A stretch of DNA of 64,000 nucleotides from [Lactobacillus] rogosae (GTDB lineage: Bacteria; Bacillota; Clostridia; Lachnospirales; Lachnospiraceae): the NCBI GenBank assembly GCA_900112995.1, contig FONU01000004.1:1-64000 (forward strand). Reading direction: 5' to 3'. Below, in pieces: positions 53,116-64,000 of the stretch (within the stretch, counting starts at the first letter, position 1; each line of letters opens with the position of its first letter). Both the position numbers and the translations under genes were made by a program. The notes beneath the pieces were generated by a model. That model saw nothing but the letters and a program-made list of their open reading frames with translations, made no database searches and was not told the DNA's origin.

Positions 53116-53472
53116 CTATATCGCACTACCTGTATCTACTATCTGGTAGGCTTCAATCTTGAACTGGTCTTCTGCACCTATTCCAACAAATCTACAGCCA
53201 TACATATACTCGTCATTCTCACAAGAATCTCTGTGTAGAATTTCAACTACAACGTAAAGCTTTTCGCCATTAGCAAGAGTTATAACCGTGTCATAAAAAG
53301 AATTAACTTTAAAATCATAGCCAGACTTAAATGCTATCCCACCTTTAGATATGTCTACAACGTGAACATCAGCTTTATTTTGAATACGATCTGCGGCATT
53401 TACCCCTAGCTGATTAAGTGATACCGTTACATCTATATCTGTTCTCCTTGCTTTTCTCATCTCAGCACCCAT
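53116..53472 (-). CDS. PilZ-domain protein (c-di-GMP receptor)
   Basis: A 118-residue single PilZ domain. The two ligand motifs are present: an Arg-rich start (EMRKARRTD) and VVDISKGGIAF, the D-x-S-x-x-G loop. It should bind c-di-GMP and act by protein contact. The frame opens at an ATG at 53490 with no ribosome site; the ATG at 53472 after GGATG is a little better supported, but the exact start is uncertain. It follows the GGDEF gene by 113 bases on the same strand. Confidence 0.88.
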   Translation of the reverse strand: MGAEMRKARRTDIDVTVSLNQLGVNAADRIQNKADVHVVDISKGGIAFKSGYDFKVNSFYDTVITLANGEKLYVVVEILHRDSCENDEYMYGCRFVGIGAEDQFKIEAYQIVDTGSAI

Positions 53473-53603
53473 ATTACATCCATCTCCCATTCAATATAAT
53501 ATAAAATTGTATAATACTTGTATATATTATCACATTATTCGACATATTTCTATTATTTATAATATTTTATTACATTTTTATTAATTTTGTATAAATTAAT
53601 ATT

Positions 53604-54671
53604 TTATTGTTGTGCTAATTTTACAAGGCGTTTATTCTCGTACATATGCTTATCCGCCCTGTCAAACAATGTTCTAAGCGTACATTCTGTATAATCATCA
53701 GAAAATGCCCAGCCATACGCATAACTTATCTTAATATTCTTTCCGTGGTCGTTAAAATCGTCAACCTCTTCCTTTAACTTTTCAAGCAAGCCAATAACAT
53801 CTTCCTTAGGCATATCCCTGATAACTGCAACAAACTCATCTCCGCCATATCTTCCAACAAATTCCTTTGACGGTATGACATTTCTTAATATATTGGCAAA
53901 ATTAACAATCAACTGGTCACCAACAGAATGTCCTAATGTGTCATTTGCAATCTTCAGATTATTAAGGTCAAACATTATACAAGCAACATTCCTGTCAAGA
54001 AATCTTAAATCGTGGAATACCTCTTCACATCTGCTCTTATTAGGAAGTCCTGTATGAGCATCCAGATATGCTTTCTGTTCAAGCACTTTATTCTTTCTTA
54101 CAATTATAATTGCCTGTATCATCTGAATAATTATAAGTAAAAGCAGCCCTGCCATATCAATAACTGTAATTGTCTCTATAAAATGGATATTGTCGGCTAT
54201 ATCCTCTGAATATCTTTCTGCCGCAGATACTGTCTGGTCTGCAAGCGAAAAATACATCTCACTCATATCAACAATATCTGAATTATCAACTCCGTTTTCC
54301 CTTACATTATTAATCTCATTCTTAAGCTTACCCCAGTAATCAATCTGTATATCAAGCTTCTTCTGGTAGTCTGTATCGCGTAAGCTTACAAGATTATACT
54401 CACCATCTTCATACTTCAAATCTGCAAGGACATCATCAAGATATTCTATTAGCTCATCATCGGAATTACCGATAACCTCAAGCTTAACTGCCCTCTGTGT
54501 TGCACCTCTCACAAGTCCTGCATAATTAATTACTCTTGCAGTTCCCTGAAGATTTTTAATCTCTACCATCATATTAGCAACCAATACAATAAGTATAATA
54601 ATCAATGCACTCTGTATCATCATATTTACTGTTCTTATCTTACTGTTTTTCTTAAGATCTTTATTAACCAT
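53604..54671 (-). CDS. Diguanylate cyclase with PilJ-type sensor
   Basis: A 355-residue protein with membrane helices at about residues 15-35 and 165-190 and an external helical domain between them that starts INYAGLVRGATQRAVKLEV, like the type IV pili methyl-accepting (PilJ-N) sensor. Residues 200-350 form the GGDEF domain with intact RYGGDEF (about 275) and substrate loop FDLNNLKIANDTLGH. No RxxD inhibitory site is visible at the usual place. It makes c-di-GMP and probably feeds the PilZ protein just downstream. Confidence 0.92.
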   Translation of the reverse strand: MVNKDLKKNSKIRTVNMMIQSALIIILIVLVANMMVEIKNLQGTARVINYAGLVRGATQRAVKLEVIGNSDDELIEYLDDVLADLKYEDGEYNLVSLRDTDYQKKLDIQIDYWGKLKNEINNVRENGVDNSDIVDMSEMYFSLADQTVSAAERYSEDIADNIHFIETITVIDMAGLLLLIIIQMIQAIIIVRKNKVLEQKAYLDAHTGLPNKSRCEEVFHDLRFLDRNVACIMFDLNNLKIANDTLGHSVGDQLIVNFANILRNVIPSKEFVGRYGGDEFVAVIRDMPKEDVIGLLEKLKEEVDDFNDHGKNIKISYAYGWAFSDDYTECTLRTLFDRADKHMYENKRLVKLAQQ

Positions 54672-54794: not shown

Positions 54795-54829
54795 AGGGAC
54801 TAAAGTACTATATCTGTACCTTAGTCCCT
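54795..54829. terminator. Terminator of the SipW/camelysin gene set
   Basis: AGGGACTAAAGTAC (54795-54808) pairs with GTACCTTAGTCCCT (54816-54829) with one mismatch pair position shifted, loop seven bases. It lies 90 bases past the last gene of the cluster on the minus strand. Confidence 0.7.
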
Positions 54830-54918: not shown

Positions 54919-55632
54919 CTATAAGCCCCAGTCTGCCCTGCTGTCTTCCTGCTTAGAAGACACCCCCTCTGCAAGTACCTTTAATTCAAAATGTGCATTT
55001 TCTGGAATATCACCTGTATATGTTACCTTATTAATCAAACGTGAGGTCATATCCCCCGGTGCAACCGGCACACTATAATAATAATATCTCTCATTATCGT
55101 CAGATGAAGAATTATCCATATAGAACCAGCTTCCGGTTAAATCTTCATTATCCTTCATAGCTTTATCAACATCAGCTTTACTCTTTAACTCATTGGCATA
55201 CGAATAACTGACCTTGCCCCTCATATCAACAGCGGCTATATTTCCTGCAATTCCTGCCTTAATATTTTCCTTACTGTCATCATATACAATCATAGGTACT
55301 AACCTTACTCTCACATAAGTATCAGTTGTTGGATACTCATCCGAATCAATATTCTTTACAGCTATTTCCTTGGTTCTCGTAGTATTGTCGTCTCTAATTC
55401 TATCATAAACATCATTAATATTATCCGTAAGCTGTTCACCCATATCTTCATATATTATTATATTATCATCATTGAAGTGCTCAACTACACCTATATTAAC
55501 CGCCGCACCTGCGAACTGGTTAGCCACTGTCACTGTCCTTGTATTAAGCAGGGCATAAGTAGTCCCGGCAGCAGCACCCATAAGTAATACAGTTATCCCA
55601 GCCGCCAGTGCAGTCTTTTTTAACTTTCCCAT
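54919..55632 (-). CDS. TasA/camelysin-like secreted protein (copy 5)
   Basis: A 237-residue protein with a signal peptide ending GTTYALLNTRTVTVANQF, the SipW-type cleavage region (AYALL/AYFT followed by an N-x-F motif). The mature part is acidic and beta-rich with YVRVRLVPMIVYDD, TGSWFYM and YYYSVPVAPGDMTSRL, then ELKVLAEGV and a terminal DWGL. This order (VRV strand, W-Y, Y-Y-x-x-PG, then KV-x-AEAV, then WG) recurs in the other four proteins. It likely forms surface fibres. It is the last gene of the cluster, 131 bases after sipW. Confidence 0.8.
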   Translation of the reverse strand: MGKLKKTALAAGITVLLMGAAAGTTYALLNTRTVTVANQFAGAAVNIGVVEHFNDDNIIIYEDMGEQLTDNINDVYDRIRDDNTTRTKEIAVKNIDSDEYPTTDTYVRVRLVPMIVYDDSKENIKAGIAGNIAAVDMRGKVSYSYANELKSKADVDKAMKDNEDLTGSWFYMDNSSSDDNERYYYYSVPVAPGDMTSRLINKVTYTGDIPENAHFELKVLAEGVSSKQEDSRADWGL

Positions 55633-55763
55633 ATACTTCTGACTTCCTTCCAGTTATTTTTTTTAATTATTACCTCATATGGACTTTATAAATTTTTAAC
55701 CTGTAAACCATTCATAATATTACTGTATAACTATCAAGAAGCTTAATAGCTATAAGGCTCTCT

Positions 55764-56147
55764 CTATCTTAAAATGTATCCAAGATACGGCACATTTAAT
55801 ACCACTTTCCCCACAACCTTATCATAAGCTACACTTCCGCCATCTTCAGTCTCATTCGCATCACCTTTGGTGTGAAAGCTCTCTGTGTCATTATCTTTAT
55901 CAATAACCCTGTGGGTGACGACTGTATTATCATTAATATAAAATGTAATAACATCACCCACCTCAATATCATCAATTGATGATTTCTCCACATATACAAC
56001 ACTTCCAACGTGATATTCAGGCTCCATACTTCCCGACAGCACCTTATAAGTCTTAAGTCCCATAAGCCTTGGAATATATAGAACTGCCGCTATAACCAAC
56101 ACAATCACCAACAAAATATCAGTGACAATTTTAATAAACCTTTTCAT
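55764..56147 (-). CDS. sipW: Signal peptidase I, SipW (ER) type
   Basis: A 127-residue membrane peptidase with one N-terminal helix (residues 5-27). The catalytic Ser40 is in LSGSMEPEY and the general base is His79 in VTHRV, not Lys, which marks the SipW/ER class; TKGDANE carries the conserved Asp. There is no second membrane helix of note beyond a hydrophobic end (NVPYLGYIL). In Bacillus SipW cleaves TasA and TapA; here five TasA-like proteins in the same cluster are the evident substrates. AGAGGGG precedes the ATG. Gap of 16 bases to the large surface protein gene upstream. Confidence 0.92.
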   Translation of the reverse strand: MKRFIKIVTDILLVIVLVIAAVLYIPRLMGLKTYKVLSGSMEPEYHVGSVVYVEKSSIDDIEVGDVITFYINDNTVVTHRVIDKDNDTESFHTKGDANETEDGGSVAYDKVVGKVVLNVPYLGYILR

Positions 56148-56163
56148 ATTCCCCTCTCGTGCA

Positions 56164-59139
56164 TTATCTTATAAACTTATTAACTGCTGATGCTGCATCT
56201 CTTAACCAGTTATAATTCTTCTTAATAACATTGCTAAAATCTGCCTGTGCCTTATCTCCATCAGCAGTATTTCCATAATGCAGTTTATCAAGCCCGAAGA
56301 ATTCCGGTTTTGTGCCATCTATTCTCTTTCCTATAAATATATCCTCACATTCCTTATAGGAGTCATTGCCAGAATAGTTATCACTCTTTTTAATTAAGGT
56401 ATATTCCGGTGTCCAGCTTTCTTCCTCTATAACACTATAAAAGCCTTTCTTTAAACCAGTCACTGTACTTGTCGCTGACAATACATCACCATTGGCATCA
56501 AATGAAGCTGTGGCATAGAATACCGCCTCTAATGCACCCTTGTTCTCTGTATTATCTTCATTCACAACACCATACTGCTCTATTCTGAATATAAATGTCT
56601 GGTTAGCTCTTATAACTTTGTTATCAATATACTGCTCATCAATATATTTAGTTATATCAAGCTGCCCCTTAACAACCTTTATTCTATAGCACGCACAATC
56701 ACTGCCATAATGATCACCTGGCTCGTCATTGTTGTATATTATGCTGCTTGCTATATGTCCATCTGTATTAATAGTACACTCATCGCTATTACTTACAGGT
56801 GTTACATTATAAAATCCTTTCACATAATATACGCTGTCACTTCCTGTGCTGGCATTACTATTAATTCTGTTAATAACATCTGCCTTAGTTATAACACTTC
56901 CTAATGTTCCATTATTATCCTCATACCACTCCGTATAATAATCCTGCTCTGTTAATGCATTTCCGTCTTCACGGATATTGCCGTTAAGTTTGAACATTTC
57001 GGACATTTCATAATCTGCTGAGGTAATATTTTCTCCGTAAAATATTACATTTTCCCTGCACTTAAGAGTTCCGTTGACTTTTACATTAACCGTCGGTGTA
57101 TCGAATTCCTTAATACCTCCATTGATAATTACACCAGAAGCCGAAGCATTAGTCGTGACATTATTACCACCTATATAATTGTCCTTTGCCTTTACGAATA
57201 TGCTTTTCTCCCAGGTATACAGCTTACTATCAGAATACTGTACTGACTGGTTATCCCATTCTACATACAGAAGATTTCTTTCCTTATCATACTTTATATT
57301 ACCGCCATTCACACTGTATGGCTGGTCAGCCGCTTTATCAGCCGTAACTATCTCGTTATTATCAGCTATAATGTCAAATCTCGAATCAATGTAATCTCTT
57401 ATTATTACATTATTAATCACATCACCTTCTGCATAGCTTCCATTATTATTGCTGATACCTGTCATAAGATTAATCTTATATGTGCGGTTATCCCAATCCT
57501 CTACCCTTACCTGCTTATCAACGATAAAATCCTCTATGCTTACATTTCTTGTATTGACAATACTGCTGTTAAATACATTTTCAACCGCATAACTCTTCTT
57601 GCCGTCTATATACTGTACTTTAGTTCTTGTAACAGCAATTACATTTCCACTGTTGTCAGTGAGTGTGGCTATAGCTGTTGAACTGTCATTCTCATCAAGT
57701 ACAACCTCGACATTGTATTCCTCACCTGAACCTGTGTAGCCGTCTGGTGCTGTTATTTCTTTTAAAATGTATTTTCCAACTGGAAGATTATCAAAGCTTA
57801 CTATACCATTCTTATCAGATACACTTGTTTTAGTTAAAGCATTTTCCTTATTATCTTTACTTGTAATTCCAAACACTGCATTAGCAAGCCCATTACCCCT
57901 ATCATCAATCTTTTTAAAATTAAGATTGCCACTATCCGCAATATCAATTCTTGCTGAATTAGGAACAATAAACTTCATATTACAGTTAGAGGCATTACCA
58001 CCTCTCTCCATATAAAGAACTGTTATTGTGTGGTTAGTTGACATATTTACTTTATCCCTGCTTGCAACAGTCTGTAATTCCCTCGCTATAGGCCCTGTCT
58101 GCCAGAGGTCTACATCACCGCCACATTCAGGATGTATTCCACCAAGATCAAGAACAAGCTCACCATCGACAAATACCCACAAATCATCATCACCTGTGAA
58201 CTTATATAAAAGGTCGCCTGTATAACCATTAAGCGAGAATGAAATATCATATCTCATTCCAAAATAATAGTTAGTACCCTTCTGTCCATCAGCCGCATTA
58301 TAACCGCAGTCTAACACATTGGAGTCCGCATTATTTAATGGGAAGAAATTATCTCCCGCCAATGTCACATCGCCTGATGGCGAAGTTACGCTTTTTAATG
58401 TGTAAGTGCTGCTGTCATTACCATTATCCTGTTTATCAAATGTCAATTTATAATTGTTATATATTGTCTTTCCTGTCTTCTTAGCATCAGAAAATAATCC
58501 CGGCTCATCAACATTGAACAATACATTTTTATAATTTTCCTTATCAAGCCCATAAATAATTCCCTGCGAAGCATTCATATAATCTTTTTTTACTCCGCTG
58601 AATGAGCCTGTTGTCTTAATTCCACCATTGTAATATATACAGGTGTTGACATTAAGTCCATTAACGTAACAATTGTGCTGGTTAGCCCTGAAGTTCTGGT
58701 CTATGGTTCCAACAGTAAGCTTTGGCTTTCCATTGTCAGCGTAATTAGATGAAGTATTAATACTTCTCTTTGGATATTCCTTATAACCCCAGCCATACAC
58801 ATTTCCTTTATATGGTGCAACTACATAATCATAAAATGTGCAATATCCCTCAAGCACGTTATCTGATGCCGCCAATTTACTAACACCTGGTGTATCCGCA
58901 TTTCCCGTAGTATCTGTACTACCTGCCTTATCCATATTTCCTGTAGTGTCTGTACCTTCTGATGTATCTGCACTTCCTGCCTTATCATTAGAATACACCT
59001 GTATTGCATTAACATTTTTTATATTACTGCTGCCTGCTCCAAATGCTGTATACATCATTGCTGTTATAGCTGTCACACACAATAACACACACATCACAAT
59101 AGAAACAATAACCTTCCTGTGCTTCCAGTTAATTCCCAT
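56164..59139 (-). CDS. Large fibro-slime/Cna-B surface protein
   Basis: A 991-residue protein. After an N-terminal hydrophobic helix (about residues 12-35) comes a region rich in TDT/GNMDKAG repeats (about 50-85), then a fibro-slime domain (about 150-400) with FTGDDDLWVFVDGELVLDLG, and a Cna-B/SpaA-type domain (about 405-490: FKKIDDRGNGLANAVFGI, GKYILKEITAPDGYTG) that can form an isopeptide bond. Later beta domains follow to about 970. The C-terminus (NWLRDAASAVNKFIR) has no LPxTG-like signal or membrane helix. A GTG at 59154 is in frame, but AAAGGAG before the ATG at 59139 is better. It is probably the scaffold or cap of the fibre. Confidence 0.85.
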   Translation of the reverse strand: MGINWKHRKVIVSIVMCVLLCVTAITAMMYTAFGAGSSNIKNVNAIQVYSNDKAGSADTSEGTDTTGNMDKAGSTDTTGNADTPGVSKLAASDNVLEGYCTFYDYVVAPYKGNVYGWGYKEYPKRSINTSSNYADNGKPKLTVGTIDQNFRANQHNCYVNGLNVNTCIYYNGGIKTTGSFSGVKKDYMNASQGIIYGLDKENYKNVLFNVDEPGLFSDAKKTGKTIYNNYKLTFDKQDNGNDSSTYTLKSVTSPSGDVTLAGDNFFPLNNADSNVLDCGYNAADGQKGTNYYFGMRYDISFSLNGYTGDLLYKFTGDDDLWVFVDGELVLDLGGIHPECGGDVDLWQTGPIARELQTVASRDKVNMSTNHTITVLYMERGGNASNCNMKFIVPNSARIDIADSGNLNFKKIDDRGNGLANAVFGITSKDNKENALTKTSVSDKNGIVSFDNLPVGKYILKEITAPDGYTGSGEEYNVEVVLDENDSSTAIATLTDNSGNVIAVTRTKVQYIDGKKSYAVENVFNSSIVNTRNVSIEDFIVDKQVRVEDWDNRTYKINLMTGISNNNGSYAEGDVINNVIIRDYIDSRFDIIADNNEIVTADKAADQPYSVNGGNIKYDKERNLLYVEWDNQSVQYSDSKLYTWEKSIFVKAKDNYIGGNNVTTNASASGVIINGGIKEFDTPTVNVKVNGTLKCRENVIFYGENITSADYEMSEMFKLNGNIREDGNALTEQDYYTEWYEDNNGTLGSVITKADVINRINSNASTGSDSVYYVKGFYNVTPVSNSDECTINTDGHIASSIIYNNDEPGDHYGSDCACYRIKVVKGQLDITKYIDEQYIDNKVIRANQTFIFRIEQYGVVNEDNTENKGALEAVFYATASFDANGDVLSATSTVTGLKKGFYSVIEEESWTPEYTLIKKSDNYSGNDSYKECEDIFIGKRIDGTKPEFFGLDKLHYGNTADGDKAQADFSNVIKKNYNWLRDAASAVNKFIR

Positions 59140-59164
59140 GTCAGCTCCTTTCACCTTTCCATTA

Positions 59165-60319
59165 CTACTGTATTCTTTCTATTGCGTACTCTATACTCTC
59201 ATCAAGCTTTTTTACTCTAAGATTTCCTTTAATCCTTCTGACAACAACTAACGCATTGTTATAATCACACTGCGTAAGCATAATCACATACTGCCATTTA
59301 TTGTACTGTGAAATCAGATCTCCTTCCCTTAATGAAGCCAGCAATGTATTCTTTATATGTGCGCTGTTCCTGCCATTTACAGTGACAAGCACAATTGTAA
59401 AAAAACAATTACTTCTCTGTCTTCTTCTAAGTTCCAATTCAAAGCTTTTCTTAAAACTATTATAATCGCAGAATAAAGCCCCCTTTAAAGCTGTCCTGCC
59501 TGCATAAAGCTCTCTTCTTACAGTCCTTATATCCGATCTGGCTGAATGTGTCATTATAAGAAGCTGGTTATATAGTTCCATTAACTTTCTTCCAGGGCTT
59601 ACATTAAGCTGTTCTTTTAACAAATCCTTCACCTTCTCATAATGCCCTGCCGCTTCTGCTATTTTATTCTTAGCAATCAGTGACTTAATATAATAGAATT
59701 GTATATCTTCATCTAATCCATCTATCATTATGGCTCTATGTCCGATTTGTTCAATCCTGTCATAATCACCCTCACCATATAAATCCTGCAATACATTTTT
59801 AACAACCTCTAGATACCTTGAATGATAATACACGCTGAATGTGACAACCCAGTATTCATATGAATATTTATTAAAGAATTTCTTTTTATAAATGTCTATT
59901 GCATAAGCACTGTATGATATACGCTCTTTAATATCCGGCTCACATTCTGCCCTGTTGCACAGCTTCTCGAACTGCTCAGTATCTATAACTGTATTAACAT
60001 TATCATTCCAGCAGTAGCTTCCCATTAATGTCTTTATAGGGTTGATTCCAAGCTGGCTTTTTAATACGCTTCTTGCCCTGTATACAAGATTTTTAAGTGC
60101 ATTGGCAGGGTCGTCACATTCACCCTCTGTCCAAAGGACATCAGATAACTCCCCGACACTCACAACATTTTCCTTATGACATATAAGATATGCCAGAAGT
60201 CTTGTCACCTTATCAGAATTGATACTCTTTTGTGAAAACTCTTTATCTTTATAAGTGATTTTAAAATCATCTAAAAACGTAACTTTCAACTCCTGCGTAT
60301 CAGTTTCTGATTTATACAT
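59165..60319 (-). CDS. SARP/BTAD-type transcriptional regulator
   Basis: A 384-residue regulator. Residues 10-100 form an OmpR-like winged helix (LKVTFLDDFKITYKDKEF, RLLAYLICHKENVVSVGELSDVLW, ALKNLVYRARSVL), and residues 100-255 a helical BTAD domain (ISYSAYAIDIYKKKF, ILMTH end). The last 100 residues (FFTIVLVTVNGRNSAHIKNT, LLASLREGDLISQYNKWQYV) look like a GGDEF fold that has lost the GGDEF loop. SARP regulators bind direct heptamer repeats spaced 11 bp apart; such a pair exists upstream of the first cluster gene. It starts two bases after the KTGD-protein stop. Confidence 0.85.
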   Translation of the reverse strand: MYKSETDTQELKVTFLDDFKITYKDKEFSQKSINSDKVTRLLAYLICHKENVVSVGELSDVLWTEGECDDPANALKNLVYRARSVLKSQLGINPIKTLMGSYCWNDNVNTVIDTEQFEKLCNRAECEPDIKERISYSAYAIDIYKKKFFNKYSYEYWVVTFSVYYHSRYLEVVKNVLQDLYGEGDYDRIEQIGHRAIMIDGLDEDIQFYYIKSLIAKNKIAEAAGHYEKVKDLLKEQLNVSPGRKLMELYNQLLIMTHSARSDIRTVRRELYAGRTALKGALFCDYNSFKKSFELELRRRQRSNCFFTIVLVTVNGRNSAHIKNTLLASLREGDLISQYNKWQYVIMLTQCDYNNALVVVRRIKGNLRVKKLDESIEYAIERIQ

Positions 60320-60321
60320 TA

Positions 60322-60990
60322 TTACTGCCTGTTCCTCTGCCTCATTACAACAACACCAGCTATTCCTGCTATGCCTGCAAGTGCCACAATTATATATAAT
60401 AATATATTATTACTATCACCTGTCTTTACCGCTGTAATCACATTATTGCTTACTGTATCCTGCAAATCTGGCTGTTCTGCATTAACCGTAATCTCCAACT
60501 GTCCCTGCTTATTCATATAAGAATTGTCCATAGAACGACCATCTATATACAATACAAGCTTTATATCACAGCTCTCACCCTTACTTAATTGTGCAATCCT
60601 GACATCTTCATCAAAAAACGACTTGTCAGACTGTGTCTTACTGCTGTTACCTATAAGTTCATTATAAAAAGGCTCTGTATCTGCATTTTTATAAAGCTTA
60701 ATTCCATATACTGCCGTCTGATCTCCAGTTCCTTTATCTGCAAGGTTATCAAGAACTTTTCCATTAATATAGAATTCCATATTCTCTGCTGAACTGTTGG
60801 ATATCTTAATAACTGAACTTCTCTCCTCTCCTGGAAGCATATCCCTGTACTCAAGATTTTTATCAATCACTACGAATTTCTTAGCTGTTTCATCAAGTGT
60901 TATAACCGTATCATCTGCCAAGACTTTAACATATGGCACTGCAATAACAACTACGGCAGATACTACCGCCACTAATTTCTTTAAAAGCAT
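60322..60990 (-). CDS. Secreted protein with KTGD-type cell-wall sorting signal
   Basis: A 222-residue protein with a signal peptide (residues 1-25), an Ig-like or beta-sandwich body with KISNSSAENMEFYINGKVL and CDIKLVLYIDGRSM, and a C-terminus made of AVKTGDSNN, a 20-residue hydrophobic helix and the basic tail RQRNRQ. That arrangement is a sortase sorting signal, with VKTGD in place of LPxTG. No sortase gene is in the window. It may anchor the fibre to the wall. GGAGGAG sits three bases before the ATG, the best ribosome site in the cluster. Confidence 0.8.
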   Translation of the reverse strand: MLLKKLVAVVSAVVVIAVPYVKVLADDTVITLDETAKKFVVIDKNLEYRDMLPGEERSSVIKISNSSAENMEFYINGKVLDNLADKGTGDQTAVYGIKLYKNADTEPFYNELIGNSSKTQSDKSFFDEDVRIAQLSKGESCDIKLVLYIDGRSMDNSYMNKQGQLEITVNAEQPDLQDTVSNNVITAVKTGDSNNILLYIIVALAGIAGIAGVVVMRQRNRQ

Positions 60991-60998
60991 ATCTCCTC

Positions 60999-61592
60999 CT
61001 ACCTGTCAGATACAGCTTTAAGGCTGCCATCATCACCTAATTCAGCTTCAACTCCCCATTCTGTCAGCATAGCATCACCGGCCGCAACTGTCTGGACTGC
61101 TTCTGCATCCCAATTAATATTAATAGTCTTTCCGCTGTATTTATTAGTGTTCTCAGATTTCGAATCAAAGAGTATTATTGAATCCATAAGCTCTGGTGTT
61201 CTCTCACCTGGATTTAATACCTTATTATAATATACATATACATTTTCACTATCTGTATGATTATCGGGTACTATCCAATCATCTTTATTAATCATATTGA
61301 TATTAACCCAGTTATCCTTGCTAATCTTTACACGGACATATTGTGCCTTCTCTCCACTATTAAGCACAGATACTCTCTGTTCAATAGTGTCATCTATTGT
61401 GTTAATTCCGTTAGTCTGCATATTGCCCTTATCATCAATTCCCGCACCACTTACACACAAGCTTAAGTCTAACGAAGATGTCGTAACTGTCTTATCAACG
61501 TATGCTGACACACGATTTTTTGCCATTGTCTTTCCCGTGTATAAACCAGCAATAACAAGTATTGCCGTACCAACTAATATGAATCTTTTCAT
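60999..61592 (-). CDS. TasA/camelysin-like secreted protein (copy 4, divergent)
   Basis: A 197-residue protein with a short signal (MKRFILVGTAILVIAGLYTG) and a beta-rich mature part. AQYVRVKISKDNW, VYVYYNKVLNPGERTPEL, ININWDAEAVQTV and TEWGVEAEL are the same four blocks as in the other copies, in the same order. The cleavage region is less typical (SAYVDKTVTTS). It stands 8 bases before the KTGD-protein gene and 129 bases after the previous camelysin gene, across a hairpin. Confidence 0.75.
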   Translation of the reverse strand: MKRFILVGTAILVIAGLYTGKTMAKNRVSAYVDKTVTTSSLDLSLCVSGAGIDDKGNMQTNGINTIDDTIEQRVSVLNSGEKAQYVRVKISKDNWVNINMINKDDWIVPDNHTDSENVYVYYNKVLNPGERTPELMDSIILFDSKSENTNKYSGKTININWDAEAVQTVAAGDAMLTEWGVEAELGDDGSLKAVSDR

Positions 61593-61618
61593 ATACTTCC
61601 TCTCATTTCATTTAATTA

Positions 61619-61643
61619 AGGGGCAAATTATTAATCTGCCCCT
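61619..61643 (-). terminator. Hairpin inside the camelysin gene set
   Basis: Eleven-base arms AGGGGCAAATT (61619-61629) and AATCTGCCCCT (61633-61643) match at ten positions around a three-base loop. On the minus strand the bases after it are TAATTAAA, a poor T run, so it may be a leaky terminator or mRNA processing site. Confidence 0.55.
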
Positions 61644-61721
61644 GACATCATTACATTTATTATTATATTGGGCTAGTGTAATATATATGACAACTTTTGC
61701 TGCATATTAATAACGCTTGAA

Positions 61722-62324
61722 TTACTTTAAGCTTTTTTCAATAGCCACATTGCCCCATCCTGTAATATTACCAGCTTCATCAGTTACAGGTGTAAAATTA
61801 TCAGACTGGATAAATTCTGCCTTAACGTTAATATTAAATGTTATTCCTGCAATCTCATTGCCCCATTCTGTTGGAATAGTAACTTTAGAGAATACTTTTG
61901 ATGAATTGATTGCTCCTGTTTTATTAGAAAGTATCTCATTATAGTAATAATAACCATCCTCTGACTTAGTCCAGCCAGCACTAATATCAAGATTATTCTC
62001 AATAGCTAATGCCTGCTCCTTAGTAAGTCCCTCATAATTAATGCTCACTCTTACATAAGCATCTTCTGACTCTTTATCAAGTGTCACTGTCGGATCTTTA
62101 TCAAGCACATCACCCGGCTTTACATTCGTATAATCTTTACCTGTCGTATTATCATCTCGCATATGCTCATCTGTTTCTGTCAAAGTTCCTGTAACGTGTC
62201 CTATAGTTATTACATTTGCTCTTGTATCCTTATCTGTAAAATATGCAAGTGTTCCGTAAGTCACCCCTGTAATGCAAAGTATCAAAGCTGCTACACCGGC
62301 AGTTAATTTCTTCTTATTAACCAT
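61722..62324 (-). CDS. TasA/camelysin-like secreted protein (copy 3)
   Basis: A 200-residue protein that most resembles classical TasA/CotN: signal peptide ending GTLAYFTDKDTRANVITIGHV, matching the SipW-type AYFTD...N-x-(F/I)-x-x-G pattern. The mature part has VKPGDVLDKDPTVTLDKES, AYVRVSINYEG, GYYYYNEIL, FNINVKAEFIQS and GWGNVAIE. It should be exported by Sec, cut by SipW and assembled outside. AGGAAAGAG lies upstream of the ATG. Confidence 0.85.
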   Translation of the reverse strand: MVNKKKLTAGVAALILCITGVTYGTLAYFTDKDTRANVITIGHVTGTLTETDEHMRDDNTTGKDYTNVKPGDVLDKDPTVTLDKESEDAYVRVSINYEGLTKEQALAIENNLDISAGWTKSEDGYYYYNEILSNKTGAINSSKVFSKVTIPTEWGNEIAGITFNINVKAEFIQSDNFTPVTDEAGNITGWGNVAIEKSLK

Positions 62325-62350
62325 ATAATCTCTTTCCTGAATAAATAAAT

Positions 62351-62396
62351 ATTATACTGTTATTGTTCAATTCCAATGATATAATACAATTTCAAT
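62351..62396 (-). promoter_or_regulatory. Possible internal promoter before camelysin copy 3
   Basis: On the minus strand two copies of ATTGRAATTG (62387-62396 and 62368-62377, 19 bases apart) precede a perfect TATAAT (62351-62356) by 11 bases. No good -35 hexamer is at the normal distance, which would fit an activator-dependent promoter. Confidence 0.35.
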
Positions 62397-62445
62397 AATA
62401 TAACGCAAAAAGCACTGTCCGATTTATTCAATATAATACATTTTA

Positions 62446-63195
62446 TTAGAACTGTGCATCAGCAGATGTCTTGCTGTTTACAAGCTTGATAAGTTCTGGC
62501 TGTGCCTCGTTGTAATCAGCAAATGTTGATGCCTGAACTGCAAAACCTGTAACCTTGATATTGAATGTAGGAAGTGTACCTGCACTTACAATGTTACCAT
62601 CTGCATCCTTGTATATAACAGTTGGGTCGTACTGTTCCTTAGTTGTATCAATTATTGATAACTTATTGCCGTCTGCATCACACTTATAGATAGTTGTTGT
62701 CTTAGCTGCACTTGACCATTCTTCTGTTATTCCAGCATTAACTGTAACATTGTTAAATAATGCTTCTGTTGACTCTCCTGCTTCAACGGCTGTCATATAT
62801 ATCCACACTTCACTTCCGTCTGAATTGACTGTCGCCATTTTCCAGTTATCATTGTCGTAATCTGTAATTGAGGCATATTTTTTAAATTCTTCTGCACTCA
62901 TAAGATTGCCCTTATCATCTAAATAATCAACCTTAACTGCCATATAGACAGGCTGATCTGATTCGTTATTCATAACAGGATTTTTCTTTATTACATCTCC
63001 TGGAAGATAATTCTTTCCTGAATCACTGGTCCATTCTGTTTCTGTAAGTGTTGTTGTAATATTACGGCTTGAAGTAAATGTATTGGTCTTAGTTTCTGTT
63101 ACTGCATTAAGATATGCTAATGTACCTCCTACTGCAAGACCTGCTGAAAGTACCATAGCTGCTGCTGTTAATGTAATCTTCTTACAAGTTGTCAT
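62446..63195 (-). CDS. TasA/camelysin-like secreted protein (copy 2)
   Basis: A 249-residue protein with signal peptide ending GGTLAYLNAVTETKTNTF. The mature part shares with copy 1 the segments NITTTLTE-W, NYLPGDVIKKNPV, YMAVKVDYLDDKGNLMSAEEF, and the end TLPTFNIKVTGFAVQASTF, so the two are tandem duplicates. It has an insertion of about 40 residues before the last block (YKCDADGNKLSIIDTTKE). The ribosome site GGGAGGA lies within the last codons of copy 1, so the genes are translationally coupled. Confidence 0.85.
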   Translation of the reverse strand: MTTCKKITLTAAAMVLSAGLAVGGTLAYLNAVTETKTNTFTSSRNITTTLTETEWTSDSGKNYLPGDVIKKNPVMNNESDQPVYMAVKVDYLDDKGNLMSAEEFKKYASITDYDNDNWKMATVNSDGSEVWIYMTAVEAGESTEALFNNVTVNAGITEEWSSAAKTTTIYKCDADGNKLSIIDTTKEQYDPTVIYKDADGNIVSAGTLPTFNIKVTGFAVQASTFADYNEAQPELIKLVNSKTSADAQF

Positions 63196-63200
63196 AATAA

Positions 63201-63887
63201 TTAATCCTCCCTAACAATACTCATTTCCAATAACGAATTCTTCGCTTCCTCTACTGATACGCCCTCTGCCTGAACTGCATATGCCGTAACCTTGATATTG
63301 AACTCAGGTAATCTCTTAGTTGTGTTATCTGCAGTAATTTCATTGCTTAAATGCACTTTAGTAAATAAAGGCTTTGAAATATTTTCTTTAATATCTGTGT
63401 TGGCATTATCTTTATCAAGCGGCTTATTATACATATACATAAGCCGGCTTGCATATTCATCATTTTCTAAATCTGAATTGGCATTTCCAATAAATGTCCA
63501 ATCTTTAGACCAGTCAATTCCTGCATTAGCAAGCTCTGAACCTCCATAAAGATATCTGTCAGCAAATTCCCTGAATGTGAGTTCGTTATTCTTCTCATCA
63601 AAGAACTGAACCTTTAATGCCACATATGCACTGATACTTTCATCATTAAGGCTTACGGTTGGGTCTTTATCAATTGTCTGCCCCGGCACATATACCTTAG
63701 CTGCTTCTTTTCCATATCTCTCCCATTGCGGTTCTGTCAGGTCAATACTTATGGATTTATCCGACGCAAATACATTGGTCTTAGTTTCTGTTACCGTCTT
63801 TAACAAAGCGTATGCAGCCATACAACTGACTGACACAACTGCAATAACAGAACACACTAACAACAGTATCTTTTGCTTACCTTTCAT
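63201..63887 (-). CDS. TasA/camelysin-like secreted protein (copy 1, first gene of the set)
   Basis: A 228-residue protein with signal peptide ending MAAYALLKTVTETKTNVF, nearly the same cleavage region as copy 2. Other blocks are SIDLTEPQWERYG, VYVPGQTIDKDPTV, AYVALKVQFFDEKNNELTF and LPEFNIKVTAYAVQAEGV. As the leading gene it follows the putative SARP operator and promoter directly. AAAGGA is eight bases from the ATG. Confidence 0.85.
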   Translation of the reverse strand: MKGKQKILLLVCSVIAVVSVSCMAAYALLKTVTETKTNVFASDKSISIDLTEPQWERYGKEAAKVYVPGQTIDKDPTVSLNDESISAYVALKVQFFDEKNNELTFREFADRYLYGGSELANAGIDWSKDWTFIGNANSDLENDEYASRLMYMYNKPLDKDNANTDIKENISKPLFTKVHLSNEITADNTTKRLPEFNIKVTAYAVQAEGVSVEEAKNSLLEMSIVRED

Positions 63888-63922: not shown

Positions 63923-63956
63923 ATTATTACCCATTCTGGTCACACGAAAGTCACAC
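63923..63956 (-). promoter_or_regulatory. Putative SARP operator and promoter of the camelysin gene set
   Basis: On the minus strand GTGTGAC (63956-63950), four bases, GTGTGAC (63945-63939): two identical heptamers at 11-base period. Ten bases further is AATAAT (63928-63923), a five-of-six match to the -10 consensus, with no recognisable -35 hexamer. This is the layout of promoters activated by SARP regulators, one of which is encoded in the same gene set at 59165. Confidence 0.6.
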
Positions 63957-64000
63957 AGGAAAATATTTACAAAAAAATCAGTGATAAGATTTCTCTTACC

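Follow-up and report, generated by a model that had tools for sequence, protein, structure and literature searches.

What is built by nine adjacent genes for five small secreted proteins, a signal peptidase, a large surface protein, a wall anchor and a regulator, and how are these genes switched on? The question is raised by positions 54919-63887 of the window, the whole 64,000-nucleotide stretch of [Lactobacillus] rogosae DNA that was analysed (contig FONU01000004.1, positions 1 to 64,000), from a genome that groups with the genus Lachnospira. An earlier note on this DNA had described nine same-strand genes of an expanded fibre apparatus with its own regulator, and all nine open reading frames were confirmed in position and on the minus strand. 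We assign a probability of about 0.6 to the reading that they form a dedicated operon for a wall-anchored, SipW-processed heteropolymeric fibre of the TasA/BsaA type under its own SARP-type activator. The conserved gene set, the larger number of SipW substrates, the wall anchor and the regulator uphold the earlier proposal, but the scaffold role given to the large protein has an at least equally good rival, and the supposed lack of a precedent was not borne out.

Gene order and limits of the operon

As shown in Table 1, the genes for the subunits of 228, 249, 200 and 197 residues are transcribed first, followed by those for the KTGD anchor, the BTAD regulator, the fibro-slime/SpaA protein, SipW and the 237-residue subunit. 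Hairpins bound the gene set on both sides, which is consistent with one transcription unit, and the upstream hairpin is likely the terminator of the preceding gene, isolating the operon. Relatives carry the same gene set, so the cluster is not a product of chance. No Rfam family was matched in the operon region. A recent foreign origin was rejected because the base composition is alike (36.3% vs 35.2% GC).

Small subunits, peptidase and surface proteins

Whichever of the five subunits was used to start it, profile iteration gathered one and the same group of about 56 proteins. In hhalign, the 197-residue subunit's family matched the other four at E 1e-23. By these sequence comparisons the five subunits are one family, nearest to the BsaA/camelysin models, in agreement with the five TasA-like proteins named earlier. 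Sequence profiles tie the small proteins to the camelysin, BsaA and TasA models; the camelysin model was passed by one of the five (the 200-residue subunit) and matched by 12 of 28 family members. The predicted structures were of middling confidence, with a predicted local distance difference test (pLDDT) score of 70-72, and gave generic beta-sandwich matches. SipW-type signal peptides had been claimed for all five; two subunits (62446-63195 and 61722-62324) exceed the TIGR04088 cut-off, while for the other three the claim follows from family homology only.

The five subunits correspond to five best-match groups, and all five groups have separate members in the congener L031. In L030 four subunits are encoded by separate genes and the 197-residue subunit is fused to the KTGD anchor, giving a protein of 494 residues (L030 8481-9965) without a second signal peptide. 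The Eubacterium callanderi locus L041 contains four recognisable subunit groups and one subunit outside the groups. That the five best-match groups are kept in relatives argues for distinct jobs of the subunits rather than for gene dosage, and the fusion in L030 would place the 197-residue subunit at the anchor.

The KTGD protein carries a C-terminal TG motif, a transmembrane helix and a basic tail, and its ectodomain is predicted to be an Ig/pilin-like beta-sandwich (pLDDT 69.5). There is one sortase in the entire genome, on contig 39, and none within the operon. The large protein has 991 residues from an internal ATG or 996 from a GTG, and its domain matches bear out the fibro-slime/Cna-B protein of 991 residues described before. 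It has no sorting signal and no LPXTG. Because it combines adhesin-type domains with the lack of a sorting signal, the role of a fibre-tip adhesin would fit at least as well as that of a scaffold. The KTGD protein as wall anchor, proposed together with that scaffold, is upheld by a sorting signal over the cut-off.

SipW is an ER-type signal peptidase in which both catalytic residues expected from the earlier note, Ser40 and His79, are present. The protein stops just before the C-terminal transmembrane helix of its orthologues (127 residues vs 173-175 in congeners), and the missing helix is encoded by no frame downstream.

The regulator and its degenerate GGDEF domain

Actinomycete SARP regulators consist of an OmpR-type winged helix and a BTAD domain. 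The regulator encoded here had been described as a BTAD (SARP) protein, and both its winged helix and its BTAD domain score over their cut-offs, but that description was incomplete because the protein also has a degenerate GGDEF domain in which the I-site is intact. The targets differ as well, since actinomycete SARPs act on antibiotic clusters and the targets here would be surface appendages.

A profile of the C-terminal part of the regulator found diguanylate cyclase structures (best E 3.3e-9), and Pfam GGDEF was matched by 23 of 27 members of the family of this domain. The GGDEF motif was found in none of 73 regulator homologues. The RxxD of the I-site was found in all 73 (72 by script, L093 by eye) and the arginine at +31 of the I-site in 71 (70 by script, plus L093). 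As a control, RxxD was present in 0 of 9 true GGDEF domains of the source genome and in 6 of 10 in the surveyed loci. The alignment of the regulator with PleD is ungapped, and the I-site residues fall on what we take to be Arg359, Asp362 and Arg390 of PleD, the allosteric site for cyclic di-GMP (c-di-GMP). Given 16 GGDEF, 7 EAL and 6 PilZ matches in the genome, c-di-GMP is very likely present in the source organism. Viral contigs contained no relative of the regulator.

The tested case of such a domain is PelD of Bacillus cereus, whose dead GGDEF domain binds c-di-GMP via RxxD and a downstream arginine (PMC7112168). Like the regulator here, PelD has a dead GGDEF domain, an intact RxxD and a second arginine (PMC7112168). 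It differs in acting post-translationally on polysaccharide synthesis, whereas the predicted c-di-GMP domain here is joined to a DNA-binding regulator.

A likely operator

A direct repeat is common to the DNA upstream of the window operon and of L030. In the window a single strict site lies 68 bp upstream of the operon's first ATG. The repeat TGTGAC-N5-TGTGAC was found at 31 sites, in 15 of the 17 loci with both a BTAD regulator and a KTGD anchor. In these 17 loci periods of 7-10 and 12-23 gave no site; there was likewise none in five Markov simulations or in the six KTGD anchor loci without a BTAD regulator. The -10 box lies exactly 10 bp past the repeat in 35 of 39 sites. Copies of the repeat lie upstream of the large-protein gene and of subunit genes, the first one included; in L040, L054 and L057 they also precede genes for pilus adhesins.

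In a quick tree of 73 regulators, the fibre-linked ones cluster (9 changes vs 16.9 in shuffles). On this tree the operator was present in 17 of 22 loci inside the fibre-linked clade and in 3 of 48 outside it, with a Fisher value of 2.9e-9 that is optimistic because related loci are not independent. Judged by this distribution, the repeat is well supported as the likely operator of the BTAD regulator and belongs mainly to the fibre-linked clade. In SARP promoters the -35 box is replaced by direct heptamer repeats, which have an 11-bp period and immediately precede the -10 box. Because the repeat here likewise sits where a -35 box would be, the analogy suggests that it acts through activation and not repression.

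Three loci of regulators outside the fibre clade show a related repeat, TGTAAC with an 11-bp period and a -10 box at equal distance, which may serve a different clade as operator.

Table 1. Features of the fibre locus in order of transcription, with the evidence for each.
Feature	Coordinates	Strand	Evidence
Hairpin then T-run	63969..64000, reaching ~64007 past the window end	-	fold -23.3 kcal/mol, 55-nt stretch around hairpin
Candidate operator, direct repeat TGTGAC-N5-TGTGAC, 11-bp period	63939..63955	-	sole strict match in 1.238 Mb of genome
-10 box AATAAT	63923..63928	-	10 bp after second repeat
Small secreted TasA/BsaA-like subunit, 228 residues	63201..63887	-	common family with other four
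Small secreted TasA/BsaA-like subunit, 249 residues, SipW-type signal peptide	62446..63195	-	TIGR04088 27.6 bits (cut-off 19); TIGR04090 E 2.3e-8
Small secreted TasA/camelysin-like subunit, 200 residues, SipW-type signal peptide	61722..62324	-	Peptidase_M73 29.7 bits (cut-off 22.5); TIGR04088 22.8 (cut-off 19)
Small secreted TasA/BsaA-like subunit adjoining anchor, 197 residues	60999..61592	-	hhalign 99.6% vs other four groups; predicted beta-sandwich, pLDDT 71.7
KTGD sortase-type wall anchor, beta-sandwich ectodomain, 222 residues	60322..60990	-	LPXTG_anchor TIGR01167 17.1 bits (cut-off 15.9)
Transcription regulator, 384 residues: winged helix, BTAD, degenerate GGDEF	59165..60319	-	BTAD 52.1 bits (cut-off 22.1); Trans_reg_C 27.7 (cut-off 26.2)
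Degenerate GGDEF domain of regulator, residues ~270-384	59165..59512	-	I-site Arg331, Asp334, Arg362; GGDEF replaced by YNKWQY
Fibro-slime/PA14-like/Cna-B (SpaA) surface protein	56164..59154	-	Fibro_Slime 55 bits (cut-off 45); SpaA/prealbumin domain E 2.7e-19
SipW-type (ER-type) signal peptidase	55764..56147	-	Ser40/His79; TIGR02228 101 bits (cut-off 52); Peptidase_S26 match
Small secreted TasA/BsaA-like subunit, 237 residues	54919..55632	-	TIGR04090 E 2e-4; common family
Terminator-like 14-bp hairpin after last gene	54795..54829	-	tail weakly T-rich; z -3.5 for 139-nt stretch

Conservation and wider distribution

The earlier note had set conservation of the gene set in relatives as a test beforehand, and the set was found kept together in congeners and in other genera. 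The regulator is carried by 3 of 22 members of the genus, and all three have the whole operon. In G018 the operon is at the same chromosomal place, and in G021 the 228-249-200 block stands at the operon's opposite end. Lactonifactor, E. callanderi, Agathobacter and Roseburia have these genes too, arranged as subunit, KTGD anchor, (second membrane protein), regulator, large protein, SipW and subunits. This arrangement is found in part in E. barkeri and E. aggregans, where no SipW was seen within the available stretch.

The surveyed loci were located with an alignment of members picked for their SipW neighbourhood, and four of those five genomes recur, so that counts among these loci are biased; the labels given to the neighbouring genes derive from profiles made for this analysis. 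In the unbiased sample, most regulators have no fibre locus next to them, and some TasA/KTGD loci lack the regulator. One genus (L105, L109 and L110) has TasA-TasA-KTGD clusters with neither an adjoining BTAD regulator nor the operator; its genomes have as many as four anchor matches each.

The regulator family adjoins type IV pilus genes in 15/49 and 7/20 loci and sortase genes in 15/49. These neighbours make the family look like one that regulates surface appendages in general. We hold it at roughly even odds that a c-di-GMP-responsive, SARP-like class of activators, with a winged helix, BTAD and a dead GGDEF domain with I-site, controls surface appendages in Eubacteriales. These would be SipW/TasA-like fibres, sortase pili and, judged by neighbourhood only, type IV pili, and the fibre-linked clade would act via the shared direct-repeat operator.

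Several further arrangements were observed around these regulators. In the Blautia locus L040 (2399-21110), the BTAD regulator stands side by side with genes for type IV pili, a diguanylate cyclase gene, TasA-like genes and a sortase pilus. A small conserved protein of about 70-220 residues with the motif WQG...F.S..EL..L is encoded beside many regulators (e.g. L041 11216-11638 and L062 6849-7223) and is not found in the window. Paired BTAD regulators occur in L029, L035, L039 and L025, and in L025 a SipW-type peptidase lies between them.

Proposed mechanism

In the mechanism that we propose, the heptamer direct repeat stands in for the -35 box, 10 bp before the -10 box, and would be the binding site of the BTAD regulator, which once bound would switch on the whole operon, its own gene included. 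Its activity may be set by c-di-GMP at the RxxD I-site of the dead GGDEF domain. SipW would cleave the five TasA-like subunits and free their N-terminal strands, and the freed subunits are predicted to polymerise in a defined order via donor-strand exchange. The 197-residue subunit would adjoin the KTGD protein, which the sortase would fix to the wall as the base of the fibre, and the fibro-slime/Cna-B protein may be the adhesive end.

Weighing the alternatives

Several results weigh against a fibre operon under such a regulator. Among 246 genomes of the order, the sample that gives the fairer rate, the regulator occurs in 39 and the anchor in 12, and the two are adjacent in 3. The operator scan of the organism's own genome covers 1.238 Mb, or 44% of it. 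The homology of the KTGD anchor to the TasA-like subunits is only probable by profile comparison (hhalign 83.6%, E 8e-6). With the model of the 197-residue subunit, the TasA fibre 8aur was at Foldseek rank 30 (E 0.013) and TasA was absent among the 50 VIA-align rows listed, and a profile of four subunit groups found no TasA in the PDB by sequence. Finally, in relatives the operon is not reliably accompanied by the adjacent cyclase and PilZ genes, so that the case for c-di-GMP control is drawn solely from the GGDEF domain, and the retained RxxD could be structural. That these two genes belong to the operon was considered but found no support: the cyclase gene is not beside the operon in G018, is elsewhere in G002 and is separated from the operon by a hairpin, and congeners that lack the operon also have the PilZ gene.

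In the window, the membrane diguanylate cyclase and PilZ genes lie at 53116-54671, just downstream of the operon on the same strand. The PilZ gene is at the same place in G018, and the cyclase gene in G002 adjoins an endonuclease IV gene.

The alternative that survives best keeps the fibre operon and the regulator-operator pair, and takes the degenerate GGDEF domain to be a structural or dimerisation module without c-di-GMP sensing, the regulator level or another ligand being what activates. No linked cyclase is conserved with the operon, the invariant C39, F44, R53 and R57 (fragment numbering) could serve another ligand, and the Asp and Arg of RxxD may aid the fold. However, nearly all homologues keep the three I-site residues, whereas none retains the active site, and the true GGDEF domains of the same genome lack RxxD. 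We consider this alternative rather unlikely.

We consider it improbable that no fibre is made and that the five small proteins instead act separately, as secreted or wall-associated proteins of the camelysin kind co-expressed with an adhesin. The structure models do not single out TasA, and camelysin was first described as a protease, which would fit this account. However, the operon has a dedicated SipW, and in L030 a sortase-type anchor is fused to a subunit. The subunits are also homologous to BsaA, TasA and camelysin, and BsaA and TasA have been shown to polymerise (PMC7395162, PMC9674648). An ordinary sortase-assembled pilus with the Cna-B protein as backbone is very improbable, for although relatives of the regulator adjoin sortase pili and Cna-B/SpaA domains are typical of such pili, the operon has no sortase, the genome has a single one, the large protein lacks LPXTG, and SipW and five TasA-like proteins are present instead.

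Comparison with known systems

The earlier note knew of no described system with this gene content, but Clostridium perfringens already provides an example of a SipW operon that has several substrates and contains its own regulator (PMC7395162). Its sipW-bsaABCRSD operon resembles the fibre operon proposed here in SipW, several secreted BsaA-type proteins and a regulator inside the operon, and BsaA forms filamentous polymers (PMC7395162). The C. perfringens regulator is the two-component system BsaRS, whereas a BTAD protein is found here, and the consulted part of that source names no fibro-slime/Cna-B protein or wall-anchored TasA-like base (PMC7395162).

The tapA-sipW-tasA operon of Bacillus subtilis shares SipW-processed TasA-like subunits with an N-terminal strand region, and its donor-strand TasA fibre is the model for the mechanism (PMC9674648). 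It differs in having two substrates and SinR control from elsewhere, without a sortase anchor or BTAD regulator. TasA-CalY-CapP of B. cereus is, like the fibre proposed here, a heteropolymer of more than one TasA/camelysin-type subunit with a wall-associated helper (PMC13082335). However, it is sortase-independent by description, CapP is not an LPXTG-type anchor, and the regulation is different (PMC13082335). In the open-access papers searched, no description was found of the anchor-subunit design, the degenerate-GGDEF regulator or the operator, nor of BTAD with GGDEF or SipW, or of SARP with c-di-GMP.

Matrix fibres of gut anaerobes have been little studied. If the proposed reading is true, common gut Firmicutes would possess a complete and compact fibre machine consisting of subunits, peptidase, base, adhesin, switch and operator, and c-di-GMP would be tied to surface protein fibres through a regulator design for which no description was found. 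The operator would be searchable and would predict member genes, and the switching of such fibres is now open to testing.

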